In this document: positions 30,324-46,394 of the stretch, one piece after another | How the letters are laid out: the number at the start of each line of letters is the position of its first letter | Numbering within the stretch: the first letter of the stretch is position 1 | Assembly: GCA_015492495.1 (NCBI GenBank) | Contig: WGEY01000076.1 | Location: 1 to 57,458, forward strand | Direction: 5' to 3' | DNA: 57,458 nt | Origin: Deltaproteobacteria bacterium | GTDB taxonomy: Bacteria > Desulfobacterota > GWC2-55-46 > DRQE01 | Position numbers and translations under genes: made by a program | Notes under the pieces: generated by a model | The model's input: the letters and a program-made list of their open reading frames with translations, nothing else | Databases searched by the model: none | What the model was told of the DNA's origin: nothing

Positions 30324-30352
30324 TTGACATTCTACTTCATGTAGAATACAAT
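30324..30352 (+). promoter_or_regulatory. Promoter with BlaI-type operator in the spacer (regulator gene)
   Basis: TTGACA (30324-30329) and TACAAT (30347-30352) are 17 bp apart. The spacer is filled exactly by the inverted repeat TTCTAC-TTCAT-GTAGAA (30330-30346). Repressor binding there would block RNA polymerase and gives autoregulation of the regulator gene at 30378. Confidence 0.8.
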
Positions 30353-30377
30353 TTGATTCAACACGACGAGTACTGCC

Positions 30378-30812
30378 ATGAATAATAAGAAGATCGCAAA
30401 GACATTCAAGACCGGCGGCAAGGGCCTGGGCAAGGTGCTGGGGCGCCTTGAAGAGGAAGTGATGTGTGCCCTGTGGAAAAGGGGCGAGAGCTGCGGTAAA
30501 GAGGTATTGAGAGAGATACAGAAGAGGCGGAAGATAGCCTACACAACGGTCCTTACTGTTCTGGAAAGGCTCGCCAGGAAAGGGCTTGTCCACAAGAGGA
30601 AGGAGAACGGCGGCTACCTCTTCAGTCCGGCCCATACGAAGGAAGAGTTTTACGGCACGGTCTCCGAAGAGGTGTTGAAGGGGGTTATCGACCTCTCCAG
30701 CACCTATGCCGCGGCGTCTTTCGTCGACATTCTGGCGGATAAGGACCCGGGTGAGCTTGACAGGCTCGCCAGGCTCATCGAGGCGAAGAAGCAGGAACTC
30801 AGGAAGGATTAA
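30378..30812 (+). CDS. BlaI/MecI/CopY-family repressor
   Basis: The 144-residue protein has the winged-helix domain of the BlaI/MecI family: LGRLEEEVMCALWKRGESCGKEVLREI, then RRKIAYTTVLTVLERLARKGLVHKRKENGGYLFSPAHTKEEF. A C-terminal dimerization helix ends in LARLIEAKKQEL. Family members are inactivated by proteolysis (BlaI, MecI) or by metal exchange (CopY). This one lacks the CxCxxxxCxC copper motif of CopY, so signalling through the adjacent M56 protease is more likely. Operators lie in its own promoter and in that of the efflux operon. Confidence 0.93.
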   Translation: MNNKKIAKTFKTGGKGLGKVLGRLEEEVMCALWKRGESCGKEVLREIQKRRKIAYTTVLTVLERLARKGLVHKRKENGGYLFSPAHTKEEFYGTVSEEVLKGVIDLSSTYAAASFVDILADKDPGELDRLARLIEAKKQELRKD

Positions 30813-30821
30813 AAGACAGAG

Positions 30822-31754
30822 ATGGCATACCCCTTGGCGTTCATCCTCTTGTTTGTAACGGGCAGCATGGCGGGGCTCGTTCTCGGTCTGCCGCACCTTG
30901 TTGACCTTACGGCCAGGCTGCTGGCATGGTGCCGGAGCATCATGCTTTTGTGCCTTCCCTACGCGTCCGTAATAAAGGCAGGTTTTCTTTGGTCTGGCAC
31001 GCTTATTGTCGGCGGCGGCGTTCTGTACGCGCTCTTTAAAGGGGCTGCGGGGCTTGTGCGCGCACGCATGGCGCTCAGAAGGCTTCCGCTCGTGGACAGG
31101 GGGCTCGGCGTATCCCTGATAAAGGATGACAACCTCAAGGTGGCTTTCACGCACGGGCTGCTGCGACCCAGGATATACCTCTCCACTGGCCTCATAAAGG
31201 GACTTTCGAGGGACGAGCTGAGGGCGGTCCTTCTACACGAGGCACACCACAGAAGGTACAGGGATCCGCTCCGCTTTTTTTTCATGTCATTTTTAAGGGA
31301 CCTCGTCTTCTACCTCCCTCTCGCCGGCTGGTTCGCCAGCGAATTCATGGAGCGCAAGGAAAAGGCCGCTGATGACAGTGTCGTAAGCCGCACCGGGGAC
31401 ACGCTCGGGCTTGCGAGCGCGCTTCTGAAGGTTGCGCGTGCAACACCCGTTGAAATAACCGCGTTGTCCGCATCCATAAAGGGAAAGGGAAGCGGTTCGA
31501 TCGAGGACAGGATAAGGCGGCTTGTAGACGACGAGGAATGCAAACATAAAAGTGGCTCACGGCCAGTGTCGGCAAGGCTTGTTGCCTCAAGCGTTGCGAT
31601 AGCAATACTTCTACTACTTAGCGTGTCGCTCCCCATATTCGCATCCGGCACGCCGGGTAAGGGCGACTGCAACAACATGGCCAGCTGCTCCATGGCGTCG
31701 GGGGCGGTCGAAAAACAGGCGGGTTCCTGCTGCACCGGGCGCTGCGGCAAATAG
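30822..31754 (+). CDS. BlaR1/MecR1-type M56 membrane metalloprotease with Cys-rich tail
   Basis: The 310-residue protein has about four membrane helices. A cytoplasmic gluzincin site LLHEAHHRRYRDPLRF (HExxH near residue 140) follows RIYLSTGLIKGLSRDELRAV, as in BlaR1. Unlike BlaR1 and MecR1 it has no penicillin-binding domain. After a last helix near residues 245-275 it ends in about 35 residues with five Cys (DC, SC, SCC, RC) plus Met and His-poor Gly/Ser linkers. It starts 9 bp after the repressor gene. The tail is extracytoplasmic if the topology follows BlaR1 and may be the metal-sensing element; this is inference. Confidence 0.88.
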   Translation: MAYPLAFILLFVTGSMAGLVLGLPHLVDLTARLLAWCRSIMLLCLPYASVIKAGFLWSGTLIVGGGVLYALFKGAAGLVRARMALRRLPLVDRGLGVSLIKDDNLKVAFTHGLLRPRIYLSTGLIKGLSRDELRAVLLHEAHHRRYRDPLRFFFMSFLRDLVFYLPLAGWFASEFMERKEKAADDSVVSRTGDTLGLASALLKVARATPVEITALSASIKGKGSGSIEDRIRRLVDDEECKHKSGSRPVSARLVASSVAIAILLLLSVSLPIFASGTPGKGDCNNMASCSMASGAVEKQAGSCCTGRCGK

Positions 31755-31764
31755 AGGTATTTTT

Positions 31765-31800
31765 TTGCCATCTTATTCTACGCTGCGTAGAATAAGATGG
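31765..31800 (+). promoter_or_regulatory. Promoter with extended BlaI-type operator (efflux operon)
   Basis: TTGCCA (31765-31770) and TAGAAT (31788-31793) are 17 bp apart. A perfect inverted repeat with 15-bp arms around CTG (31768-31800) covers the spacer and -10. Its core is TTCTAC-N5-GTAGAA, identical in arms and spacing to the site at 30330-30346. The hairpin could also act as a weak terminator for the regulator genes. Confidence 0.8.
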
Positions 31801-31838: not shown

Positions 31839-33188
31839 ATGATGAACAAAGCCAAAGTACTCACCAAAGCCCAAGTGCTTATCAAGGCATGTATCCTGGT
31901 GGTCTCGACCACTGTGGTGTTGCAGGGTGCTGCTGTCACTTCATCGCTGGCATCAGCCTCGGCGGCTGCAAAAGACAACGGGGCGGCGCAGCAGACCGTA
32001 ACGCTCAATGGACTCATTGCTTACGCCCTGGAGAACAACCCGAGGCTCAAGGCCGCCAGGCTCAAGTGGAAGAGCAAGATAGAAGAGTACCCGCAGGCCA
32101 CCTCTTACGATGACCCGGTGCTCTCCTACACGCATCCCATAGAAAAGATAGAGACGCGCCTCGGCCCGCAGGAGCGCACGGTCGGCCTGAGCCAGAAGAT
32201 ACCGTTTCCCGGAAAGCTCACGCTCAGGGGCGAGATCGTCAAAAGGGAAATAGCCATCGCCCGGACGGAGTATGAAAAGCTCAGGCGGGATCTCATCGCC
32301 GAGGTAAAGAAGGCCTACTACGAGATCTATTACATAGACCGGGCCACAGAGCTCGCCGAGGAGAACAAGGCCGTGCTCGACTACTTCTTCGAGGTAAGCA
32401 AGGCCAACTACGGGCTGGACGTATCCGAGCTCGACGAACTGGTGCGGGCCGAGAAGCTTGCAGCACAGGCCTCGTTCGACCTCATAGTGCTTAAGGACAT
32501 GCGTGAGGGCGCGGTATCAAGGCTCAACATCCTCCTGAACCGCGATCCCGCGCATACCATCCCGAAGGTAGAGGAGCCAGTGTTCAAACCCCTCACCCAC
32601 TCGCCCGAGGAGCTCTACAGTTGGGCCGCCAAGAACTACGAGGCGCTCAAGATCGCAGGCCTCAAGGTGGAAAAAAACGAGCTCAGCTCGAGGCTCTCGC
32701 GCTACAGCTACCTTCCGAACTTCCGGGTGGGGCTGAACTATTCCGAAATAGGCAGTCCGGCCATGGCGGTCGAGGACGGAGGCAGGGACGCAGTGAGCGC
32801 AACACTCGGCATAACGATACCCATCTGGTTCGGCAAAAACAGGGCCGCCGTAAGGCAGTCTGATATAGACCGCGCAAGGACCGTCATAGAAAAACAGGCC
32901 GTCACAAACGAGATACAGAACGAAGTCAGACGGGTCTACTACAACCTGGCCCGGGCCGAACGGCTCGTCAAGCTATACGGCGAATCCCTCGTGCCCGAGG
33001 CAAAGGAGGCGCTCGAGTTCGCGGAGGCCAGGTACAAGACCGGAAAGGAGATGCTCGGCAGGATCCTTGAAACACAGAGCCTGTCGATCAGCTTCCGCAT
33101 GGTCTACTACAGGGCGCTCGCCGACTATCTGAAGAGCGTGGCGGAGCTCGAAAGGCTCACCGCAAAGGAGCTTTATCAACAGCCATAA
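31839..33188 (+). CDS. cusC: CusC/CzcC-like TolC-family outer-membrane channel
   Basis: The 449-residue protein has a basic N-terminus with a hydrophobic signal segment at about residues 15-45, cut near ASASAAA. Two OEP repeats follow, with long helices such as LIAEVKKAYYEIYYIDRATELAEENKAVLDYFFEVSKANY and NEVRRVYYNLARAERLVKLYGESLVPEAKEALEFAEARYKTGK. It would form the outer-membrane duct of the tripartite pump with the next two genes. No lipobox is seen. It lacks a clear ribosome site, and its mRNA leader is only about 40 nt. Confidence 0.9.
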   Translation: MMNKAKVLTKAQVLIKACILVVSTTVVLQGAAVTSSLASASAAAKDNGAAQQTVTLNGLIAYALENNPRLKAARLKWKSKIEEYPQATSYDDPVLSYTHPIEKIETRLGPQERTVGLSQKIPFPGKLTLRGEIVKREIAIARTEYEKLRRDLIAEVKKAYYEIYYIDRATELAEENKAVLDYFFEVSKANYGLDVSELDELVRAEKLAAQASFDLIVLKDMREGAVSRLNILLNRDPAHTIPKVEEPVFKPLTHSPEELYSWAAKNYEALKIAGLKVEKNELSSRLSRYSYLPNFRVGLNYSEIGSPAMAVEDGGRDAVSATLGITIPIWFGKNRAAVRQSDIDRARTVIEKQAVTNEIQNEVRRVYYNLARAERLVKLYGESLVPEAKEALEFAEARYKTGKEMLGRILETQSLSISFRMVYYRALADYLKSVAELERLTAKELYQQP

Positions 33189-33210: not shown

Positions 33211-34881
33211 ATGTCAAAACGTACAGCAGCAACCATAGCAGTAATAGCGGGTATCATCGTCGGCTCCATCGGCATGTACCTTGCGTCAGGATACATCACG
33301 TCCGGAAAGGGGGCCGAAGAGGCGACACAACCCGCCGCGGCGAAGAAAGGGAAGAAGATACTCTACTGGCGGGCGCCAATGGACCCGACCTACATATCCG
33401 ACAAACCAGGCAAGTCACCCATGGGCATGGACCTCATACCGGTGTACGAGGGTGAGGAGGAAGTGACGGAACCGGGCACGGTGAAGATAGACCCTGTCAC
33501 CGTGCAGACCATAGGGGTGAGGACCGCACCGGTAAGGCGGATGGAGCTTAAGAAGACCGTAAGGACCATAGGAAGGGTCGACTACAACGAAAAGAAGATC
33601 TACCGCCTGCACACGAAGGTGGACGGGTGGATAGAAAAGCTCTACGCGGACTTCACCGGACAGATGGTCAGGAAAGGGCAGAGGCTACTTGAGATCTACA
33701 GCCCCACGCTCGTCTCCGCCCAGGAGGAGTATCTTCTGGCGCGGAAGTACGCCGGCCGCATGAAAGAGATCGGAAGGGAGTCCATTGTAGGCCTGAGCAG
33801 GCGTAGGCTCGAGCTCTGGGATGTGCCGGAGCGGCAGATAAGGGAGCTTGAAAAAAGGGGCAGTATCATGAAGACCCTTCAGATAGTCTCACCCACAACA
33901 GGGGTAATCGTCGAAAAACCCGTTACAGAGGGGATGTACGTTAAACCAGGCACGGACCTCTACACTGTGGCCGACATATCGAGGGTTTGGGTCTATGCCG
34001 ACGTCTACGAATACGAGATACCATGGATAAAGGCCGGCCAGGAGGCGGAGATGACGCTACTATCCTTCCCGGGAGAGGTCTTCAAGGGAAAGGTGGACTT
34101 CGTCTATCCGTTCATGGAGCCCAAGACACGCACCGTCCGGGTGAGGCTTGAGGTGGACAACCCTGGCTTCAGGCTCAAGCCGGATATGTACGCGAACGTG
34201 ACGCTCAAACCGGTCATAAGCAAAGACGCCGTGGCCGTGCCCACGGAGGCGGTCATAAGGTCCGGTGAGAGGAACATAGTGATACTCAGCAGGGGAGACG
34301 GCAAGTTCAGCCCGCGCGAGATAACGCTCGGCGCCGAGGCCGAAGGCTACTACGAGGTCATAGAGGGGCTCGACGAAGGGGATGTGGTCGTCACGTCAGC
34401 ACAGTTCCTCATAGACTCCGAGAGCAAGCTGAAGGAGGCCATCGGAAAGATGCTGGAGACCAAAAAGTCGGAAGATCCCATGGACCACGGAACAATGGAA
34501 CACGGGAGTATGGACCACGAGGACATGGAGAAGATGGACCATATGGAACACGGCAACATGGACCACGAGGGCATGGAGAAGATGGACCATATGGAACACG
34601 ACAACATGGACCACGAGGGCATGGGGAAGATGGACCACATGGAACACGGCAACATGGACCACGAGGGCATGGAGAAGATGGACCATATGGAACACGACAA
34701 CATGGACCACGAGGGCATGGAGAAGATGGACCATATGGAACACGACAACATGGACCACGAGGGCATTGGGAAGATGGACCATATGGAACACGGCAACATG
34801 GACCACGAGGGCATGGGGAAGATGGACCATATGGAACACGGCAACATGGAAGGCATGATGCACAAGGAAGACAGCCGCTGA
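33211..34881 (+). CDS. cusB: CusB-like periplasmic adaptor with His/Met repeat tail
   Basis: The 556-residue membrane-fusion protein has an N-terminal helix at about residues 8-30. A heavy-metal-binding domain at 51-80 (YWRAPMDPTYISDKPGKSPMGMDLIPVY) is also found at the start of many CusB proteins. Barrel-sandwich and beta-barrel domains follow, with GWIEKLYADFTGQMVRKGQRLLEIYSPTLVSAQEEYL and VWVYADVYEYEIPWIKAGQEA. Residues 433-544 are seven near-perfect 16-residue repeats rich in Met, His, Asp and Glu, followed by NMEGMMHKEDSR. E. coli CusB has no such tail; it may store metal or feed it to the pump. The gene is 22 bp after cusC. Confidence 0.92.
   Translation: MSKRTAATIAVIAGIIVGSIGMYLASGYITSGKGAEEATQPAAAKKGKKILYWRAPMDPTYISDKPGKSPMGMDLIPVYEGEEEVTEPGTVKIDPVTVQTIGVRTAPVRRMELKKTVRTIGRVDYNEKKIYRLHTKVDGWIEKLYADFTGQMVRKGQRLLEIYSPTLVSAQEEYLLARKYAGRMKEIGRESIVGLSRRRLELWDVPERQIRELEKRGSIMKTLQIVSPTTGVIVEKPVTEGMYVKPGTDLYTVADISRVWVYADVYEYEIPWIKAGQEAEMTLLSFPGEVFKGKVDFVYPFMEPKTRTVRVRLEVDNPGFRLKPDMYANVTLKPVISKDAVAVPTEAVIRSGERNIVILSRGDGKFSPREITLGAEAEGYYEVIEGLDEGDVVVTSAQFLIDSESKLKEAIGKMLETKKSEDPMDHGTMEHGSMDHEDMEKMDHMEHGNMDHEGMEKMDHMEHDNMDHEGMGKMDHMEHGNMDHEGMEKMDHMEHDNMDHEGMEKMDHMEHDNMDHEGIGKMDHMEHGNMDHEGMGKMDHMEHGNMEGMMHKEDSR
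34507..34842 (+). repeat. Seven 48-bp in-frame tandem repeats (His/Met-rich)
   Basis: The units begin at 34507, 34555, 34603, 34651, 34699, 34747 and 34795. Each encodes a 16-residue unit of the type NMDHEGMEKMDHMEHG, with E/G, M/I and G/D variants. Near-identity at the DNA level points to recent slippage or unequal recombination, so copy number is probably variable. Confidence 0.97.
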
Positions 34882-35057: not shown

Positions 35058-38000
35058 ATGCTCAAAAAGATAATTGAACTTTCGATAAACAACCGATTCC
35101 TGGTGATACTCTTCGTCGTCTTCGTCATAGGCTGGGGCATAATTGCGATAAAAAAGACCCCGCTTGACGCCATCCCGGACCTGTCCGACGTGCAGGTCAT
35201 AATCTACACGGAATACCCCGGCCAGGCGCCGCAGGTGGTCGAAGACCAGGTAACCTACCCGCTTACAACGGCGATGCTCAGCGTGCCCTATGCAAAGGTG
35301 GTAAGGGGCTATTCGTTCTTCGGATTCTCCTTTGTGTACATAATCTTCGAGGACGGCACAGACATATACTGGGCCAGGAGCAGGGTCCTCGAGTACCTGA
35401 ACTTCGTCGCAGGAAGGCTCCCCCAGGGTGTAACACCGAGCCTCGGTCCGGACGCCACGGGTGTCGGCTGGGTGTACGAGTACGCGCTCGTCGACAAGAC
35501 CGGCAAGTACGATCTCTCGGAACTGAGGAGCTTGCAGGACTGGTACTTGCGCTATGAACTGCAGACTGTGCCGGGGGTCTCGGAGGTCGCAAGCATCGGC
35601 GGATACGTGAAGCAGTACCAGGTCGAGGTCGACCCCAACAAGCTCCTTGCCTACAACATACCGCTCGGCAAGGTCAAGCACGCCATAATGCGCTCTAACA
35701 ATGACGTGGGCGGAAGGCTCGTTGAGATGGCCGAGACCGAGTTCATGGTCCGGGGACTGGGCTACATAAAGTCCATAGAAGACATAGAAAACATCGCCAT
35801 AGGCACGGACTCCGACGGCACGCCGATCACCGTGAAGGACGTGGCCCACGTGCATCTCGGTCCGGAGCTACGAAGGGGCATTGTCGAGCTCAACGGCGAG
35901 GGAGAGGTTGCAGGCGGCATCGTGATCATGCGTTACGGCGAGAACGCGCTCAAGGTCATAGAGAACGTAAAGGAAAAGCTCGAAGCCCTCAAGCAGGGTC
36001 TCCCCGAAGGCGTTGAGATAGTGACGGTCTACGACCGTTCCGGTCTCATACACAGGGCCATCGAGACGCTAAAGGAGAAGCTCATCGAGGAGGGGATCGT
36101 CGTCTCCATAATCTGCATAATCTTCCTCCTGCACTTCAGAAGCTCGCTTGTCGCCATATTCACCCTTCCGGTTAGCATCCTCATGGCCTTCATCGTAATG
36201 TACTACCAGGGCATAAACGCAAACATCATGAGCCTCGGCGGTATAGCCATAGCAATAGGCGCGATGATAGACGCCGCCATTGTAATGGTAGAGAACGCCC
36301 ACAAGCACATCGAGCACGAAAAGGAAAACGGGGGAGACAGGGACCACTGGCGGATCATACTGGATGCATCCAAGGAGGTGGGGCCCGCGCTCTTCTTCTC
36401 GCTCCTTATAATAACGGTATCCTTCATGCCGGTCTTCACGCTCCAGGCTCAGGAGGGCAGGCTCTTCAGCCCACTTGCATACACCAAGACCTATGCAATG
36501 GCAGCCTCGGCCATACTGTCCTTGACCGTGCTACCGGTGCTGATGGGGTACTTCATAAGGGGTAAAATACTTCCCGAGGCGCGTAACCCCGTCAACCGGT
36601 TCCTACTCTTCGTATACCGCCCTATAGTCCATTTCGTCTTGAAGTTCAAAAAAAGCGTTCTGATCGCTGCGGTGCTCGTGCTGGTAGCCACTCTCATACC
36701 CTTCAAGAAGCTCGGCGGCGAATTCATGCCGCCCCTGAACGAGGGCGACCTACTCTACATGCCCACGACCATGCCGGGCATATCCATAACCAAGGCGAGG
36801 GAGATACTACAGCAGACCGACAAAATCCTCAAGACCTTCCCCGAGGTCCACCATGTCTTCGGCAAGATCGGAAGGGCCGAGACCGCCACGGACCCGGCGC
36901 CTCTCTCCATGCTCGAAACAACCATAATGCTCAAGCCAAAGGAGGAGTGGCGCGAGGGCATGACCATAGAAAAGCTCATAGAGGAGATGGACAGGGCCAT
37001 AAAGTTTCCGGGGGTCACGAACGCATGGACCATGCCCATTAAGACGAGGGTCGACATGCTCTCAACCGGCATCAAGACGCCGGTGGGCATAAAGGTCGCC
37101 GGCGATGACCTTGAAACCCTCGAAGAACTCGGCAAAAAGATAGAGGCGGTCGTAAGGGATATCCCCGGCACCCTCTCGGTCTACTCCGAGAGGGTCGTCG
37201 GCGGGAACTACCTCGACTACGAGATAGACAGGCTTGAGGCCGCAAGGTACGGCCTTACGGTGGGAGACGTGCAGGACATAATACAGTCGGCCATAGGAGG
37301 AATGAACATCACCACCACGATAGAGGGGCTAGAGAGGTATCCGGTCAACCTGAGATACGGAAGGGAGCTCAGGGACGATCTGTCGAAGCTCAGGCGCATA
37401 CTGATACCCACGCCCAGCGGCGCGCAGATACCGATCACACAGGTCGCACGTATAAGCATAAAAAAGGGTCCCCCGTCCATAAAGAGCGAGAACGCAAGGC
37501 TGAACGCCTGGATATACGTGGACATAAAGGACATAGACGTTGGCACCTATGTAAAGAACGCCAAGGCGGTACTGGCTGAAAAAATAACCATACCGGCCGG
37601 GTACTCGATAACGTGGAGCGGCCAGTACGAGTACATGGAGAGGGCCAAAGAGAGGCTGAAGCTCGTGGTGCCCCTCACCCTGGCGATCATCTTCCTGCTC
37701 CTGTACTTCAACTTCTCGAGCATCGTGGAGAGCGCGATCATCATGCTTTCCCTTCCCTTCGCGCTCGTCGGCGGGGTGTGGCTCATGTACCTCCTGGGCT
37801 ACAATATGAGCGTCGCCGTCGGCGTGGGATTCATAGCCCTCGCGGGGGTCGCCGCGGAGACCGGTGTGGTCATGCTCATATACCTCGACCACGCGTACGA
37901 GAAGCGCTACTACAGCGGCAGGATGAACACCATCGAAGACCTGCATGCAGCGATAGTTGAAGGCGCGGCCGAGAGGGTCCGCCCCAAGATGATGACGGTT

Positions 38001-38195
38001 CTTGCAACAATCGGCGGACTCGTACCCATCATGTGGGGTACGGGTACGGGATCGCAGGTCATGAAGCGTATCGCGGCACCAATGGTCGGCGGAATGGTAT
38101 CGGCCACGGTGCTCACCCTGGTGGTCATACCAGCGGTCTACGCCCTGTGGAAGGGCCGCGGACTGAGAAAAATGATGGGATCGGAGAAGGAATGA
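35058..38195 (+). CDS. cusA: CusA/CzcA-family heavy-metal RND pump
   Basis: The 1045-residue inner-membrane proton antiporter has 12 helices and two large periplasmic loops. It shows LDAIPDLSDVQVIIYTEYPGQAPQVVEDQVTYPL, FGFSFVYIIFEDGTDIYWARSRV, and helix 4 with GGIAIAIGAMIDAAIVMVENAHK (proton relay). The pore loop has MPTTMPGISITKA, TDPAPLSMLETTIMLKP and DMLSTGIKTPVGIKV, where Met residues align with the Cu(I)/Ag(I) methionine sites of CusA. That favours monovalent over divalent metals. It starts 176 bp after cusB, a gap without evident signals, and is followed 13 bp later by a PII-like gene. Confidence 0.95.
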   Translation: MLKKIIELSINNRFLVILFVVFVIGWGIIAIKKTPLDAIPDLSDVQVIIYTEYPGQAPQVVEDQVTYPLTTAMLSVPYAKVVRGYSFFGFSFVYIIFEDGTDIYWARSRVLEYLNFVAGRLPQGVTPSLGPDATGVGWVYEYALVDKTGKYDLSELRSLQDWYLRYELQTVPGVSEVASIGGYVKQYQVEVDPNKLLAYNIPLGKVKHAIMRSNNDVGGRLVEMAETEFMVRGLGYIKSIEDIENIAIGTDSDGTPITVKDVAHVHLGPELRRGIVELNGEGEVAGGIVIMRYGENALKVIENVKEKLEALKQGLPEGVEIVTVYDRSGLIHRAIETLKEKLIEEGIVVSIICIIFLLHFRSSLVAIFTLPVSILMAFIVMYYQGINANIMSLGGIAIAIGAMIDAAIVMVENAHKHIEHEKENGGDRDHWRIILDASKEVGPALFFSLLIITVSFMPVFTLQAQEGRLFSPLAYTKTYAMAASAILSLTVLPVLMGYFIRGKILPEARNPVNRFLLFVYRPIVHFVLKFKKSVLIAAVLVLVATLIPFKKLGGEFMPPLNEGDLLYMPTTMPGISITKAREILQQTDKILKTFPEVHHVFGKIGRAETATDPAPLSMLETTIMLKPKEEWREGMTIEKLIEEMDRAIKFPGVTNAWTMPIKTRVDMLSTGIKTPVGIKVAGDDLETLEELGKKIEAVVRDIPGTLSVYSERVVGGNYLDYEIDRLEAARYGLTVGDVQDIIQSAIGGMNITTTIEGLERYPVNLRYGRELRDDLSKLRRILIPTPSGAQIPITQVARISIKKGPPSIKSENARLNAWIYVDIKDIDVGTYVKNAKAVLAEKITIPAGYSITWSGQYEYMERAKERLKLVVPLTLAIIFLLLYFNFSSIVESAIIMLSLPFALVGGVWLMYLLGYNMSVAVGVGFIALAGVAAETGVVMLIYLDHAYEKRYYSGRMNTIEDLHAAIVEGAAERVRPKMMTVLATIGGLVPIMWGTGTGSQVMKRIAAPMVGGMVSATVLTLVVIPAVYALWKGRGLRKMMGSEKE

Positions 38196-38208: not shown

Positions 38209-38574
38209 ATGAAGGAGATAAAGGCGTACATACGGGAGTTAAAGGCTGAAGAAGTGATACATGCGCTCGAGGAGGCAGGGGTGCCTGGAGTGACCGCGAT
38301 AGAGGTCAAGCGGATCGGGCCGGATATCGCCCCTGAAAAGGCCCGCTACTCCATAGACTACGGAGAAAAAATCTGCCCGATCACGAAGATTGAGATCGTC
38401 TGCAGCGATGGGGACGTGGTAAGGCTGGTCGATGTCATACAGAAGACCGCATACACGGGTCACAGGGGTGACGGCGCTATATTCGTCTCCAATATAGAGC
38501 ACGCCGTAAAGATAAGGACCGGCGAGTGGGGCGAAGGCGCGTTGCTTCCCGGACCGCAGGGAGAACAGGGGTGA
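38209..38574 (+). CDS. PII-family signalling protein linked to metal efflux (PII-NG-like)
   Basis: The 121-residue protein has the PII fold: MKEIKAYIRELKAEEVIHALEEAGVPGVTAIEV, a T-loop region, ITKIEIVCSDGDVVRLVDVIQKTAYTG, and the C-terminal block HRGDGAIFVSNIEHAVKIRTGE. Three changes from GlnB/GlnK stand out. The T-loop lacks the YRG uridylylation site, the ATP-contacting Lys in GDGKIF is replaced by Ala, and Arg before IRTGE is Lys. A separate PII group associated with CusABC-type pumps has been described. The position 13 bp after cusA fits it, and ammonium regulation is unlikely. Confidence 0.88.
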   Translation: MKEIKAYIRELKAEEVIHALEEAGVPGVTAIEVKRIGPDIAPEKARYSIDYGEKICPITKIEIVCSDGDVVRLVDVIQKTAYTGHRGDGAIFVSNIEHAVKIRTGEWGEGALLPGPQGEQG

Positions 38575-39054: not shown

Positions 39055-39492
39055 ATGAAAACCAAGGCATTGCATCGGTCATCGACCCGGTTCGATTGCG
39101 TGTGGATAAAGGCCGCATTCTTTACAGGCGTACTCCTATCGGTGATGATTCTCACGCAGAGATATTCGTATTCAGGGCAGTCCCCGGTGGTCATGCCGGT
39201 CAAATCGAACGAGGTCTGCATGGTGACCGACCGGGTCATGGGCAGACCGCAGATACCCGTCGAGGTGGACGGCAAGGTGTACTACGGCTGTTGCCAGGGA
39301 TGCAAGAGACGTCTGAAGAACGACGTCAATCTGCGTTTCGCAACGGATCCCCTCACCGGCCGAAGGGTGGACAAGGCAAAGGCCGTAATCATCGAGGGGA
39401 CAAGAGGAGAGGCCCTTTACTTTGAATCGATCGACACGGCCATGAGATACCGCGTCTCGGCTGCGAAAGGAGAGAAACAACAGAAACCCTGA
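39055..39492 (+). CDS. YHS/TRASH-like membrane-anchored or secreted protein
   Basis: The 145-residue product has one hydrophobic segment at about residues 20-40. A Cys-rich domain follows: VCMVTDRVMGRPQIPVEVDGKVYYGCCQGCKRRLKNDVNLRF. The layout, with a Cys near the start, then YYGCCQGC, matches YHS/TRASH metal-binding domains, which often accompany copper and heavy-metal transporters. A GAGAGG ribosome site and a TATAAT at 39034-39039 lie just upstream, but no good -35 is seen, so it may be read from the efflux operon as well. Its metal-binding function is inferred. Confidence 0.75.
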   Translation: MKTKALHRSSTRFDCVWIKAAFFTGVLLSVMILTQRYSYSGQSPVVMPVKSNEVCMVTDRVMGRPQIPVEVDGKVYYGCCQGCKRRLKNDVNLRFATDPLTGRRVDKAKAVIIEGTRGEALYFESIDTAMRYRVSAAKGEKQQKP

Positions 39493-40233: not shown

Positions 40234-40538
40234 CGTACATACTATCGCGGAAAGGAGGGGATGGATATGAGGAGACGTTTTCTTGTACCTAGGGTCGCCC
40301 ACTGCGACGAAGGACACAGTACCGCGTCCCGGGCATGACGTTAAACTGCCCCTTAGTGATACCATACGGGTCTTGAAATGCACGGAAAGGCGCCTGTCCC
40401 GGCCGGAACGTTACATCCTGTATGGTCCGCTGCTCCAGGGACCATACAGGCGGGACCGTGGCTTTGCGGAACGGAAGCGCTTTGACCGTCAAGGTGAAGA
40501 CACTCACCGCCCTGCACGGCCGATGGGAGGGAATACGG
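40234..40538. other. Noncoding stretch with a gene-start remnant and a hairpin
   Basis: An AAAGGAGGGG ribosome site at about 40250 precedes an ATG at 40261, but the frame (MDMRRRFLVPRV...) stops after 25 codons, so it looks like the remnant of a lost gene. A perfect 12-bp inverted repeat follows: CCTGTATGGTCC at 40417-40428 and GGACCATACAGG at 40439-40450. It is not followed by a T run, so it is not a standard terminator. Confidence 0.5.
40417..40450. repeat. Perfect 12-bp inverted repeat (hairpin)
   Basis: CCTGTATGGTCC, a 10-nt loop, then GGACCATACAGG. It lies about 90 bp before the small membrane protein gene at 40539. It could be a regulator site or RNA hairpin; nothing distinguishes these by eye. 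Confidence 0.6.
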
Positions 40539-40715
40539 ATGACGACAGGTACTGTTTTGTGGTTTATCATCATAGGGGTGCTCTTCTACCTCATGATGAA
40601 AAGGGGCGGGTGTTGCGGTGGAGGGCACGGACATGCTCACGGCCCGGGATCCGGAAAAAGGTCCAGACATAAGGAAGAGGAGCACGGGCCCGGCGACAAG
40701 GGCGGCTGCCACTGA
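40539..40715 (+). CDS. Small single-helix membrane protein with Cys/His-rich tail
   Basis: The 58-residue product has one membrane helix (TVLWFIIIGVLFYLMM) and a tail with GGCCGGGHGHAHGPG, a Lys/Glu/His stretch and a final GGCH. A GGGAGG site precedes the ATG at 8 nt. Short membrane proteins with Cys/His tails are common beside copper exporters (DUF2933-like), and CopA follows. Metal binding is an inference from composition. Low complexity makes homology unreliable. Confidence 0.7.
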   Translation: MTTGTVLWFIIIGVLFYLMMKRGGCCGGGHGHAHGPGSGKRSRHKEEEHGPGDKGGCH

Positions 40716-40781: not shown

Positions 40782-40818
40782 TGCCCTAAGGGTCATCGGA
40801 ACTGTGACCCTCAGGGCA
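40782..40818. promoter_or_regulatory. 14-bp inverted repeat upstream of copA
   Basis: TGCCCTAAGGGTCA and TGACCCTCAGGGCA flank a 9-nt centre with a single mismatch. Each arm contains its own small palindrome (CCCTAAGGG, CCCTCAGGG). It lies 48 bp before the copA ATG and is a candidate metal-regulator operator or leader hairpin. Confidence 0.5.
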
Positions 40819-40866
40819 CCGCCCGAGCGCACCCTTTACGCAAGCTTTCAGGAGGATGGAGAGAAG

Positions 40867-43518
40867 ATGGCAAAAGACCCGGTATGCGGCATGGATGTAG
40901 ATCCGAAGGAAGCAGCCGGCAGGACCGTCTACAAGGGCAAGACATATTACTTCTGCAGCTCGAGCTGCAAGGACAGCTTCGACGGCGACCCGGAGGCCGT
41001 GCTGACACCGGCAAAGGAACCCTCCACTCCTGCAAAAAAAGGCCCTGAGCGGACCGCAGGGCTCAAGAAGATAGACCTGCCCATAACCGGCATGAGCTGC
41101 GCCTCATGCGCGGCCAAGATAGAAAAGGGGCTCGCCGGGCTCAGCGGCATAGTCAAGGCGAGTGTGAACTTCGCGACCGAGAAGGTCTCCATAACGTATG
41201 ATCCCTCCGAGGTCCACCTCACCGACTTCATAAAGACCATAAAGGAGCTCGGCTACAACGCCGGCGTGGAGACCGTAACGCTGCCCATCCAGGGTATGAG
41301 CTGTGCTTCCTGCGTGGAGAAGATCGAGAAGGCGCTCAACGGCCTCGACGGGGTCGTAAGCGCCTCCGTGAACTTCGCGACCGAAAAGGCGACCGTGAAC
41401 TATATCCCCATCGCCGTCGGCACCGAGGAGATGGTGAAGGCGGTAAGGGGTATAGGCTACGACGTCGTAGAGGTAAGGAAGGAAGAAGACATCCTCGAAA
41501 GGGAGGAACGGGCGAAAAAAGAGGCCTTCAGAAGGCTCAAGACCAAGGTCATAGCCGGCGCCGTGCTTACAGTACCCATCTTTCTTTTGACCTACCCCGA
41601 TCTTTTCGGCCTGAGCGCCATCTTCGGCTTTTCAAGGCGTACATACTTCATTCTCATGTTCGTGCTCGCATCCCCTGTCCAGTTCTGGTGCGGAAGGCAG
41701 TTCTACAGCGGGGCCTGGGCCGCTGCCCGGCACAGGACCACCGACATGAACACACTCATAGCCGTCGGAACATCCGCCGCCTACCTCTACAGCCTCGCAG
41801 CCACCTTCTTCCCCGGCTTCTTCGAGGCAAGGGGTTTCGAGGCGGAGGTATACTTCGACACGGCAGCGGCCATAATAGTCCTCATACTACTCGGACGTCT
41901 CCTCGAGGCAAGGGCCAAGGGCCAGACCTCTGAGGCGATAAAGAAGCTGATCGGCATGCAGGCCAAGACAGCTCGCGTTATAAGGGACGGCAGGGAGGTG
42001 GACATCCCCGTGGAGGATGTCCAGGTCGGTGACACCGTCATTGTAAGGCCCGGCGAAAAGATACCCGTGGACGGGGTGGTAGTCGAAGGATACTCTTCGG
42101 TCGACGAGTCCATGATAAGCGGCGAGAGCATGCCCGTTGAGAAAAAGGCGGGTGACGAGGTCATAGGGGCGACTATCAACAGGACCGGCTCCTTCAGGTT
42201 CAGGGCCACACGGGTGGGCAAGGAGACCGCGCTTGCGCAGATAATAAAGATGGTCGAGGAGGCCCAGACAACCAAGCCCCCGATAGCCAGGATGGCGGAC
42301 CTCATAGCGAGCTACTTCGTGCCGGCCGTCATAGGCATAGCGATCATCACTTTTATTGTATGGTACCTCTTCGGCCCGGAACCATCCTTCACCTACGGGC
42401 TCCTTAACTTCGTAGCCGTCCTCATAATCGCCTGTCCCTGCGCACTCGGGCTCGCAACCCCTACCTCCATAATGGTCGGAACCGGCAAGGGTGCAGAGAA
42501 CGGGATACTCATAAGGGGCGGCGAGTCACTCGAGACGGCCCACAAACTCACGGCTATAATCCTCGACAAGACCGGAACACTTACAAAGGGCGAGCCCTCG
42601 CTGACAGACGTGGTAAGGCCCCATGGAGAGGACTTCAAAGAGGACGAGATACTCTTCTATGCGGCATCTGCTGAAAAGGGCTCGGAGCACCCGCTCGGCG
42701 AGGCCATCATAAACGGCGCCAAGGAGCGCGGCATCGATGCGGCGACACCCGAAGGTTTCAACGCTATACCCGGCCACGGCATAGAGGCCGTGGTCAGCGG
42801 AAGGAAGGTGCTACTTGGCAACATCAAACTCATGCAGGACAAGGGGGTGGATACCCGGGGGCTTGAAGAAGAGGCCGAAAGGCTCTCCGACGAAGGCAAG
42901 ACCCCCATGTACCTTGCCGTGGACGGCGTGGCGGCAGGTCTTATAGCCGTCGCCGACACGCTCAAGGAGTATTCGAGGGAGGCGGTCAAGGCCCTTCACA
43001 ACCTCGGCCTCGAGGTGGCGATCCTCACCGGCGACAACAGGCGGACCGCAGAGGCCATAGCAAAGGCCGTGGGCATCGACAGGGTGCTGGCGGAGGTGTT
43101 GCCCGAAGACAAGGCCAATGAGGTGAAAAAGCTCCAGGCAGAGGGCAAGGTTGTCGCAATGGTGGGCGACGGTATAAACGACGCGCCTGCGCTGGCGCAG
43201 GCGGACGTGGGCATAGCGATAGGAACCGGTGCGGACGTGGCCATGGAGGCATCGGACATAACGCTCATAAGCGGGGACCTGAGGGGTATCGTCACCGCCA
43301 TAGCGCTCAGCAGGGCCACGATAAGAAACATCAAGCAGAACCTCTTCTGGGCCTTCTTCTACAACTCATCGCTCATCCCGATAGCTGCGGGCGTCCTGTA
43401 TCCCTTCTTCGAGATACTCCTAAACCCGATATTCGCCGCCGCAGCCATGGGACTGAGCTCGGTGAGCGTTGTAACAAACGCCCTCAGGCTCAGGTGGTTC
43501 AAGCCGCCTGTAACATAG
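40867..43518 (+). CDS. copA: Cu(I)-exporting P1B-type ATPase with YHS and two HMA domains
   Basis: The 883-residue pump has an N-terminal YHS domain (residues 1-45: DPVCGMDVD and YYFCSSSC). Two HMA domains with GMSCASC lie near 76-81 and 143-148, then eight helices. ATPase motifs are [11 protein letters not shown] near 523, the phosphorylation site [12 protein letters not shown] near 567, SEHPLGEAI (HP motif), and [18 protein letters not shown] and [21 protein letters not shown]. The final helices have [15 protein letters not shown] and [12 protein letters not shown], as in Cu(I) pumps (class P1B-1). The ATG at 40867 has AGGAGG 9 nt upstream; the frame is open earlier, but those residues are unlike the family. 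Confidence 0.96.
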
Positions 43519-45258: not shown

Positions 45259-45317
45259 CTCCTGATCAATGGTAGCCTAACCAGGTGGCGGTCATACCGT
45301 TACCCTTCGAGCGAGAT

Positions 45318-46394
45318 ATGGATACGATGAAGAAGGATCCTGTATGCAAAATGTCCGTGGATGAAGACGAGGCCCTCTCAACGGAATGTGACGGCATGGT
45401 GTATTACTTCTGTTCCGAAGGCTGCAGGGATGTATTTCTCAGGACAAAGGCATGCAAACTCCCGCGAACATCCTATGACCTCATAATCATCGGAGGCGGT
45501 CCGGCCGGTATGACCGCCGGGGTATACGCGGCCACCCTCAAGATGGACGCCCTGCTCATAACAAAAGACCTCGGCGGCCAGGCCATTGACAGTACAAAGA
45601 TAGAGAATTACATGGGTTACGACTTCATAACCGGACCCGAGCTCATAGAAAAGTTCAAGTACCAGTTGATCCACTCGTATTATCTGAACCACCTGATGAG
45701 CGAGGTTGAGAGGATCGAATCCGCTGGCGGCGGATTCCTTATCACGACCTCCGAGCTCAAGAAGTACTTCGCCAGGACACTTATCATAGCCACCGGCATG
45801 TCCAGGAGGAGGCTGGGCGTACCCGGCGAGGAGAAGTTCCAGAGAAAGGGGGTCTTCTACGGAAACATCCAGGATGTAAGCTTCGTTCAGGGAGAGGACG
45901 TGGCGGTCGTTGGAGGCGGAAACACAGCGCTGCAAATCGTTGAAAACCTGCATACCGTCGCAAGGAAGATACACCTTGTCAGCACCACGCAGCTCACGGC
46001 AGATCCTGCTGTAATTGAAAGGGTACGTGGCTTCAGGAACTTCCACGAATATACCGGATACAACGTGGTCGAGTTCAAGGGTGACGCGACACTCTCCGGC
46101 ATCACGGTAAGGAAAAAGGCGGAAAAGGATGAGCTGCACATCCCTGTCAAGGGTGTCTTCATTGCCATAGGGCTGCATCCCAACTCCTCGCTCGTCTCTC
46201 ACCTTGTAGAGATCAACGAAAGGGGTGAGATCGTAATAGAGCCCGACTGTTCCACCTCCCGCCGGGGGATATTCGCTGCAGGGGATGTCACAAACGCCTT
46301 TGGAAAACGAATCATCATAGCATCCGGCGAAGGCGCAAAGGCGGCGCTCGCCGCAAGGCAATATGTACTCGGATTGCGGCGTAAGAGCTCATGA
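45318..46394 (+). CDS. YHS-domain / thioredoxin reductase-like flavoprotein fusion
   Basis: The 358-residue product begins with a YHS domain (KDPVCKMSVDEDEAL and YYFCSEGC, residues about 5-45). It continues as a pyridine nucleotide-disulfide oxidoreductase: FAD motif DLIIIGGGPAGMTAGVYAATL, NADPH motif VAVVGGGNTALQIVENL, and FAD closing motif GIFAAGDVTNAFGKR. The CxxC normally found between the two halves is absent; the equivalent stretch reads GVFYGNIQDVSFVQGEDV. It therefore cannot be a standard thioredoxin reductase. Possible roles are a ferredoxin/flavodoxin-type reductase or a metal-handling oxidoreductase. The start is uncertain: ATG 45318 or 45327, or a GTG at 45285. Confidence 0.82.
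   Translation: MDTMKKDPVCKMSVDEDEALSTECDGMVYYFCSEGCRDVFLRTKACKLPRTSYDLIIIGGGPAGMTAGVYAATLKMDALLITKDLGGQAIDSTKIENYMGYDFITGPELIEKFKYQLIHSYYLNHLMSEVERIESAGGGFLITTSELKKYFARTLIIATGMSRRRLGVPGEEKFQRKGVFYGNIQDVSFVQGEDVAVVGGGNTALQIVENLHTVARKIHLVSTTQLTADPAVIERVRGFRNFHEYTGYNVVEFKGDATLSGITVRKKAEKDELHIPVKGVFIAIGLHPNSSLVSHLVEINERGEIVIEPDCSTSRRGIFAAGDVTNAFGKRIIIASGEGAKAALAARQYVLGLRRKSS

Follow-up and report, generated by a model that had tools for sequence, protein, structure and literature searches.

A candidate copper/silver switch combining a BlaI-family repressor and an M56 membrane protease with a Cys4 tail at a deltaproteobacterial Cus pump locus

The closest described relatives of the regulatory pair analyzed here are the BlaI-BlaR1 and MecI-MecR1 systems of staphylococci and Bacillus licheniformis. 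They share with it the protein families, the adjacency of the two genes, autoregulation through a dyad, and a protease with a cytoplasm-facing HExxH...ExxxD active site. BlaR1 and MecR1, however, carry a C-terminal penicillin-binding sensor, whereas the protease described below has a tail of 38 residues with four cysteines (Cys4) instead. Another relative is CopY/CopR from Gram-positive bacteria, a BlaI-fold repressor of copper export genes with a related half-site (TAC/GTA); it has no protease partner, whereas the repressor considered here is paired with an M56 protease. A BlaI-family regulator encoded next to a BlaR1-family membrane protease is also linked to copper genes in Synechocystis sp. 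PCC 6803. In this cyanobacterium, copper activates the protease PetP and the regulator PetR is then degraded; the PetRP system governs the switch between plastocyanin and cytochrome c6, with PetR acting in addition as an activator of petJ (Garcia-Canas et al., PNAS 2021, via PMC7896320, PMC12292863, PMC13421787). A survey from 2023 noted BlaR homologues in marine heterotrophs, with a role yet to be elucidated (PMC10141476). In the open-licence literature, we found no description of a BlaI/M56 pair controlling a Cus pump. Copper control by BlaI/BlaR1-type proteins is thus already known; what would be new here is the combination of copper efflux with a Cys4 tail. Among BlaI-family precedents, the first-pass annotation of this DNA had named CopY for copper but missed PetR/PetP, the published case of proteolytic control.

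The locus lies in a stretch of 57,458 nucleotides from an uncultured deltaproteobacterium, called the window below (Table 1). Its two regulatory genes had been annotated as a BlaI/BlaR1-type pair, and the families PF03965 and PF05569 are confirmed. PF03965 (Penicillinase_R) covers residues 21-135 of the 144 residues of the repressor, the score of 77.9 bits comparing with a cut-off of 22.6, and its best solved relatives are BlaI/MecI-type repressors. The profile of the protease matches BlaR1 structures, and the top Foldseek matches of its predicted fold are BlaR1 as well. Its active-site motif H139EAHH143, D148, and E180KAAD184 corresponds to HEXXH, Asp210, and E242XXXD of the S. aureus protein, and, as in BlaR1 and MecR1, the HExxH and ExxxD motifs lie between transmembrane helices. 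Each protein is the single member of its family in the genome. The label BlaR1, however, has to be qualified: Pfam and NCBIfam searches detected no penicillin-binding domain in the protease, and the Cys4 tail had been overlooked. In a plasmid search, all M56 matches were distant and covered less than 80% of the query.

Table 1. Features of the regulator-pump locus in the window, and loci of the second pair in related genomes
Feature	Coordinates	Strand	Evidence or remark
blaI promoter, TTGACA (30324-30329), 17-bp spacer, TACAAT (30347-30352)	30324..30352	+	promoter scan, 11/12 matches
Operator 1 (predicted), TTCTACTTCATGTAGAA	30330..30346	.	fills blaI promoter spacer; exact match; kept in relatives
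BlaI-family repressor, 144 aa, without C-terminal CxC	30378..30812	+	PF03965, 77.9 bits
BlaR1-like M56 membrane protease, 310 aa	30822..31754	+	PF05569, 52.3 bits
Protease C-terminal tail, residues 273-310, predicted periplasmic	31638..31751	+	alignments; topology from hydropathy and charge
T-tract between protease stop codon and operator 2	31760..31766	+	17/17 aligned pump-side loci
Operator 2 (predicted), 33-bp dyad with TTCTACGCTGCGTAGAA at 31776-31792	31768..31800	.	before cusC in relatives too
cusC, outer-membrane factor	31839..33188	+	PF02321
cusB, periplasmic adaptor, heavy-metal-binding domain, Met/His-rich repeat tail	33211..34881	+	PF16576, PF19335
cusA, RND transporter	35058..38195	+	TIGR00914, 1310 bits
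P-II-like protein, just after cusA, probably same operon	38209..38574	+	PF00543; gene spacing
TRASH-domain exported protein	39055..39492	+	PF08394, weak (24.0 of 27 bits)
Second BlaI-M56 pair	L074:728-2204 (G054); L081 (G242); L037; L039		own CusC/CusB/CusA adjacent in L074 and L039

The pattern TTCTAC-N5-GTAGAA had been proposed as a common operator of the regulator and pump promoters. Both copies are exact, they are the only two in the window, and none occurs in 100 dinucleotide shuffles of it. The regulator copy fills the 17-bp spacer between TTGACA and TACAAT, as annotated, so that a predicted dyad operator stands in the repressor's own promoter, a feature of the BlaI/MecI/CopY superfamily. 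The perfect 33-bp dyad claimed on the pump side likewise holds and consists of two 16-bp arms around one central base. The whole genome (2.26 Mb) contains only three exact sites, all of them promoter or intergenic and located ahead of regulator or metal genes; the third is G000:C43:170-186. Two degenerate sites were set aside. A dyad with two mismatches at 40584, upstream of the CopA gene of the window, lies within a short coding frame and was put down to chance, and a dyad with one mismatch at G000:C32:13809 has no recognized metal gene downstream.

The two operators differ in how well the surrounding promoter is conserved. At the regulator, TTGAC[A/T], the operator, and a TATAAT-like box (TTGAC[A/T]-17-TA) are found in all 18 aligned loci, the window included. 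On the pump side, the operator had been placed between TTGCCA and TAGAAT, and the promoter scan recovers these boxes (31765-31793, overlapping operator 2), but this assignment is not conserved in relatives, the final T of TAGAAT being kept in merely 3 of the 17 aligned loci. Because the pump-side -35 and -10 boxes are so variable, the start of cusC transcription is uncertain. The features that are conserved across the aligned loci are the dyad itself and a T-tract some 9-12 nt upstream of it. The T-tract was considered as a terminator and rejected, since it has no consistent hairpin upstream and no terminator was detected. Operator 2 may act on initiation or as a roadblock. In the latter variant of our explanation, operator 2 would not lie in a separate cusC promoter, and bound BlaI would block read-through from the blaI promoter or from a promoter further upstream. 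The poorly kept -10 box is consistent with such a roadblock, as are the position of the GGAGG ribosome-binding site, which in several relatives begins at the end of the dyad or a few bases off, and the cusC start codon of the N4 system described below, whose ATG lies 1 nt past the dyad. The promoter-like sequence of the window itself, TTGCCA-17-TAGAAT with 10 of 12 matches, argues against it, and we regard the variant as possible but doubtful.

The arrangement recurs throughout the class. A single-sequence scan retrieved no protease loci from relatives, and an alignment-based scan retrieved 14. The aligned set comprised window-type relatives from the first search and loci from deltaproteobacterial MAGs, several of the relatives being groundwater MAGs. 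All 17 loci of the pump-side alignment have the dyad; at locus L008 (genome G242) the pump-side copy is seen only with two mismatches. A search of related genomes for the dyad, suggested with the first-pass annotation, agrees with its proposal: N5 dyads (at most one mismatch) stand on both sides of 23 of the 24 window-type pairs whose flanks are intact, and the remaining pair, L125, has the pump-side dyad only. These 24 come from 29 loci examined, the other five being two N4-type pairs (L126, L134), a truncated N4-type locus (L123), a locus at a contig end (L130), and a protease without an adjacent BlaI (L132). A profile search covering 59 genomes of the class detected the protease in 44. Exact dyads are present in 40 of these 44 and in 3 of the 15 genomes without a detected protease, a co-occurrence that the Fisher test (p = 6e-7) overstates because related genomes are not independent. 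One genome in which no protease was detected, the 600-contig assembly G323, carries an exact dyad immediately upstream of a cusC-type gene, and the protease may be absent merely from the assembly. A reversed control pattern gives up to three matches per genome, so a lone exact site needs cautious reading.

The genes behind the operators point to copper and silver. Pfam and NCBIfam confirm the annotated pump as CusC, CusB, and CusA. In E. coli CusA, three methionines carry Cu(I)/Ag(I); in a full-length alignment, M568, M618, and M667 of the window protein align with them. In CusB, tandem Met-Asp-His and Met-Glu-His repeats bring the last 141 residues (34456-34878) to 32 Met and 24 His, and this extension likely binds Cu/Ag. 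At the third genomic site, the dyad fills the 17-bp spacer between TTGACA and TATAGT exactly as at blaI. It is followed by genes for a small Gly/His-rich protein, DUF5676, YHS, and the start of a heavy-metal-associated-domain protein, probably a CopA ATPase that is truncated where the contig ends. Together with this one, ten exact sites outside the regulator-pump locus were examined closely. Downstream of them are YHS/HMA (CopA-type) ATPases, TRASH-domain proteins, the DUF5676 cluster, and a single small exported protein, a homologue of which often sits between the protease and cusC. TTGACA abuts the dyad in nine of the ten, and in L062 the two are separated by one base. Homologues of the TRASH protein stand behind dyad promoters of their own at L066, L068, L070-L072, L145, L150, and L152. 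Further dyads in other genomes mostly precede the same gene classes, and those at L148 and L160 have no recognized metal gene adjacent.

Two other observations concern the neighborhood of the copper genes. A pyridine nucleotide-disulphide oxidoreductase with an N-terminal YHS domain (45285-46394) is encoded near the YHS-HMA CopA ATPase (40804-43518). In addition, a conserved micro-ORF with a product of about 22 residues resembling MKRFMVPRVAHCSEGCxxxSRA precedes GGGCA[T/A/C]GACNNTAAACTGCCC in the window (40262-40365), at L001:272-375, and at L089-L108. This element stands before copper genes in the window, and in relatives it is often found upstream of bacteriohemerythrin-like genes. Its 21-nt core (at most two mismatches) is found in 41 of the 59 genomes of the class, and the reversed control gives no match. 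The element matches no Rfam family, its predicted stem shows no covariation, and a codon read as TGA in the window is CGA or AGA in several genomes.

Based on these comparisons, we consider it likely that the locus encodes an autoregulated Cu/Ag switch in which a BlaI repressor and an M56 protease with a Cys4 tail derepress the Cus pump. At low metal, a BlaI dimer would occupy the dyads of the blaI promoter, of the region upstream of cusC, and of the C43 cluster, keeping expression low. Excess periplasmic Cu(I)/Ag(I) would be bound by the Cys4 tail, possibly with the help of C37 and C44 of the protease. The metal-bound tail would then activate the cytoplasmic HExxH protease, BlaI would be inactivated, and the pump, the other copper genes, and the regulators would be expressed until the metal drops. 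In this scheme, the binding of BlaI to DNA and of metal to the tail, the nature of that metal, and the cleavage of BlaI are inferred. Protease-coupled BlaI control of Cu/Ag export, as proposed in the first-pass annotation, remains the best reading of the sequence data, given the twin operators across the class, the mostly copper-related regulon, the lack of a beta-lactam sensor, and the Cys4 tail. The likeness to PetR/PetP does not extend to the targets: PetR/PetP acts on the choice of electron carrier, whereas the window pair would repress a Cus pump and other copper genes. Similarly, E. coli CusRS controls a CusCBA-type pump through a membrane sensor on the periplasmic side, but it consists of a histidine kinase and an activating response regulator, whereas here the same task would fall to a protease and a repressor.

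The candidate sensor is the tail of the protease. The positively charged region of the protein coincides with the protease domain, and therefore the 38 residues past the last transmembrane helix are predicted to be periplasmic. C283, C289, C304, and C308 are invariant in both alignments (A1 and A2), and the conserved C37 and C44 are predicted to lie on the same side of the membrane. This short Cys-rich tail, which takes the place of the penicillin sensor, probably senses copper outside the cytoplasm. In the AlphaFold model the tail is below pLDDT 50, hence we claim no metal site from it. Most relatives have several histidines in the tail, in contrast to the window copy, which has none; this counts against a metal-sensing tail. 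The same circuit could also respond to thiol oxidation, envelope stress, or another soft metal (Hg, Cd, Zn), the copper genes responding since such stresses coincide with copper. Four cysteines could indeed form disulfides or bind other soft metals, and the tails of the related N4 systems differ, but CusA with its Cu/Ag methionines, the CopA-type ATPases, and the YHS and TRASH proteins fit Cu/Ag best, which makes another signal improbable.

Sensing by BlaI itself, as in CopY, with the protease as an accessory, is very unlikely. BlaI and CopY belong to one superfamily, and the best NCBIfam match of the repressor is TIGR02698 (CopY/TcrY), although at 43.9 bits it is far under the cut-off of 122. 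However, CopY binds metal via CxC motifs, which the window repressor lacks; its C-terminal half has no cysteines, all of them being located in the N-terminal DNA-binding half, and the protease stays adjacent to BlaI at nearly all loci. With neither a penicillin-binding domain in the protease nor a CxC motif in the repressor, sensing is assigned to the protease and not to BlaI. A classical beta-lactam or cell-wall sensor that neighbors the pump by chance has next to no probability, even though both proteins belong to beta-lactam resistance superfamilies, because the protease has no penicillin-binding domain and there is no beta-lactamase among the dyad-bearing genes examined.

Two genomes also contain a second BlaI-M56 pair, whose Cys-rich tail is of another kind (CNHEYCLS and similar). 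The operators of this pair have the form TTCTAC-N4-GTAGAA; one lies at the blaI end, and the other follows the protease gene. Each of these genomes has two exact N4 sites, and the ten other genomes searched, among them that of the window, have none. N4 matches the classical TACANNTGTA spacing and N5 is one base longer; thus, the arms of the window operators are one base wider apart than those of CopY and of the staphylococcal and Bacillus licheniformis systems. The difference in spacing likely keeps the paralogous systems apart.

On balance, we lean towards a distinct metal-sensing lineage of BlaI-BlaR1 systems, whose short tail of the Cys4 (often Cys4/His) type would lie in the periplasm, bind Cu(I)/Ag(I), and drive transmembrane activation of the protease, with paralogs in one cell separated by N5 versus N4 operators. 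Transmembrane signaling of the BlaR1 type is not yet fully understood, and the sensor known so far consists of a large penicillin-binding domain. With a naturally occurring candidate sensor of 38 residues, the problem narrows to a few ligand residues open to point mutation, and the N5/N4 pair provides a simple test of how BlaI-type repressors recognize operator spacing. The textbook expectation for the control of such efflux is a two-component system of the CusRS type. The switch described here would instead add to PetR/PetP another, non-photosynthetic example of copper control via BlaI proteolysis, serving efflux across a whole bacterial class.
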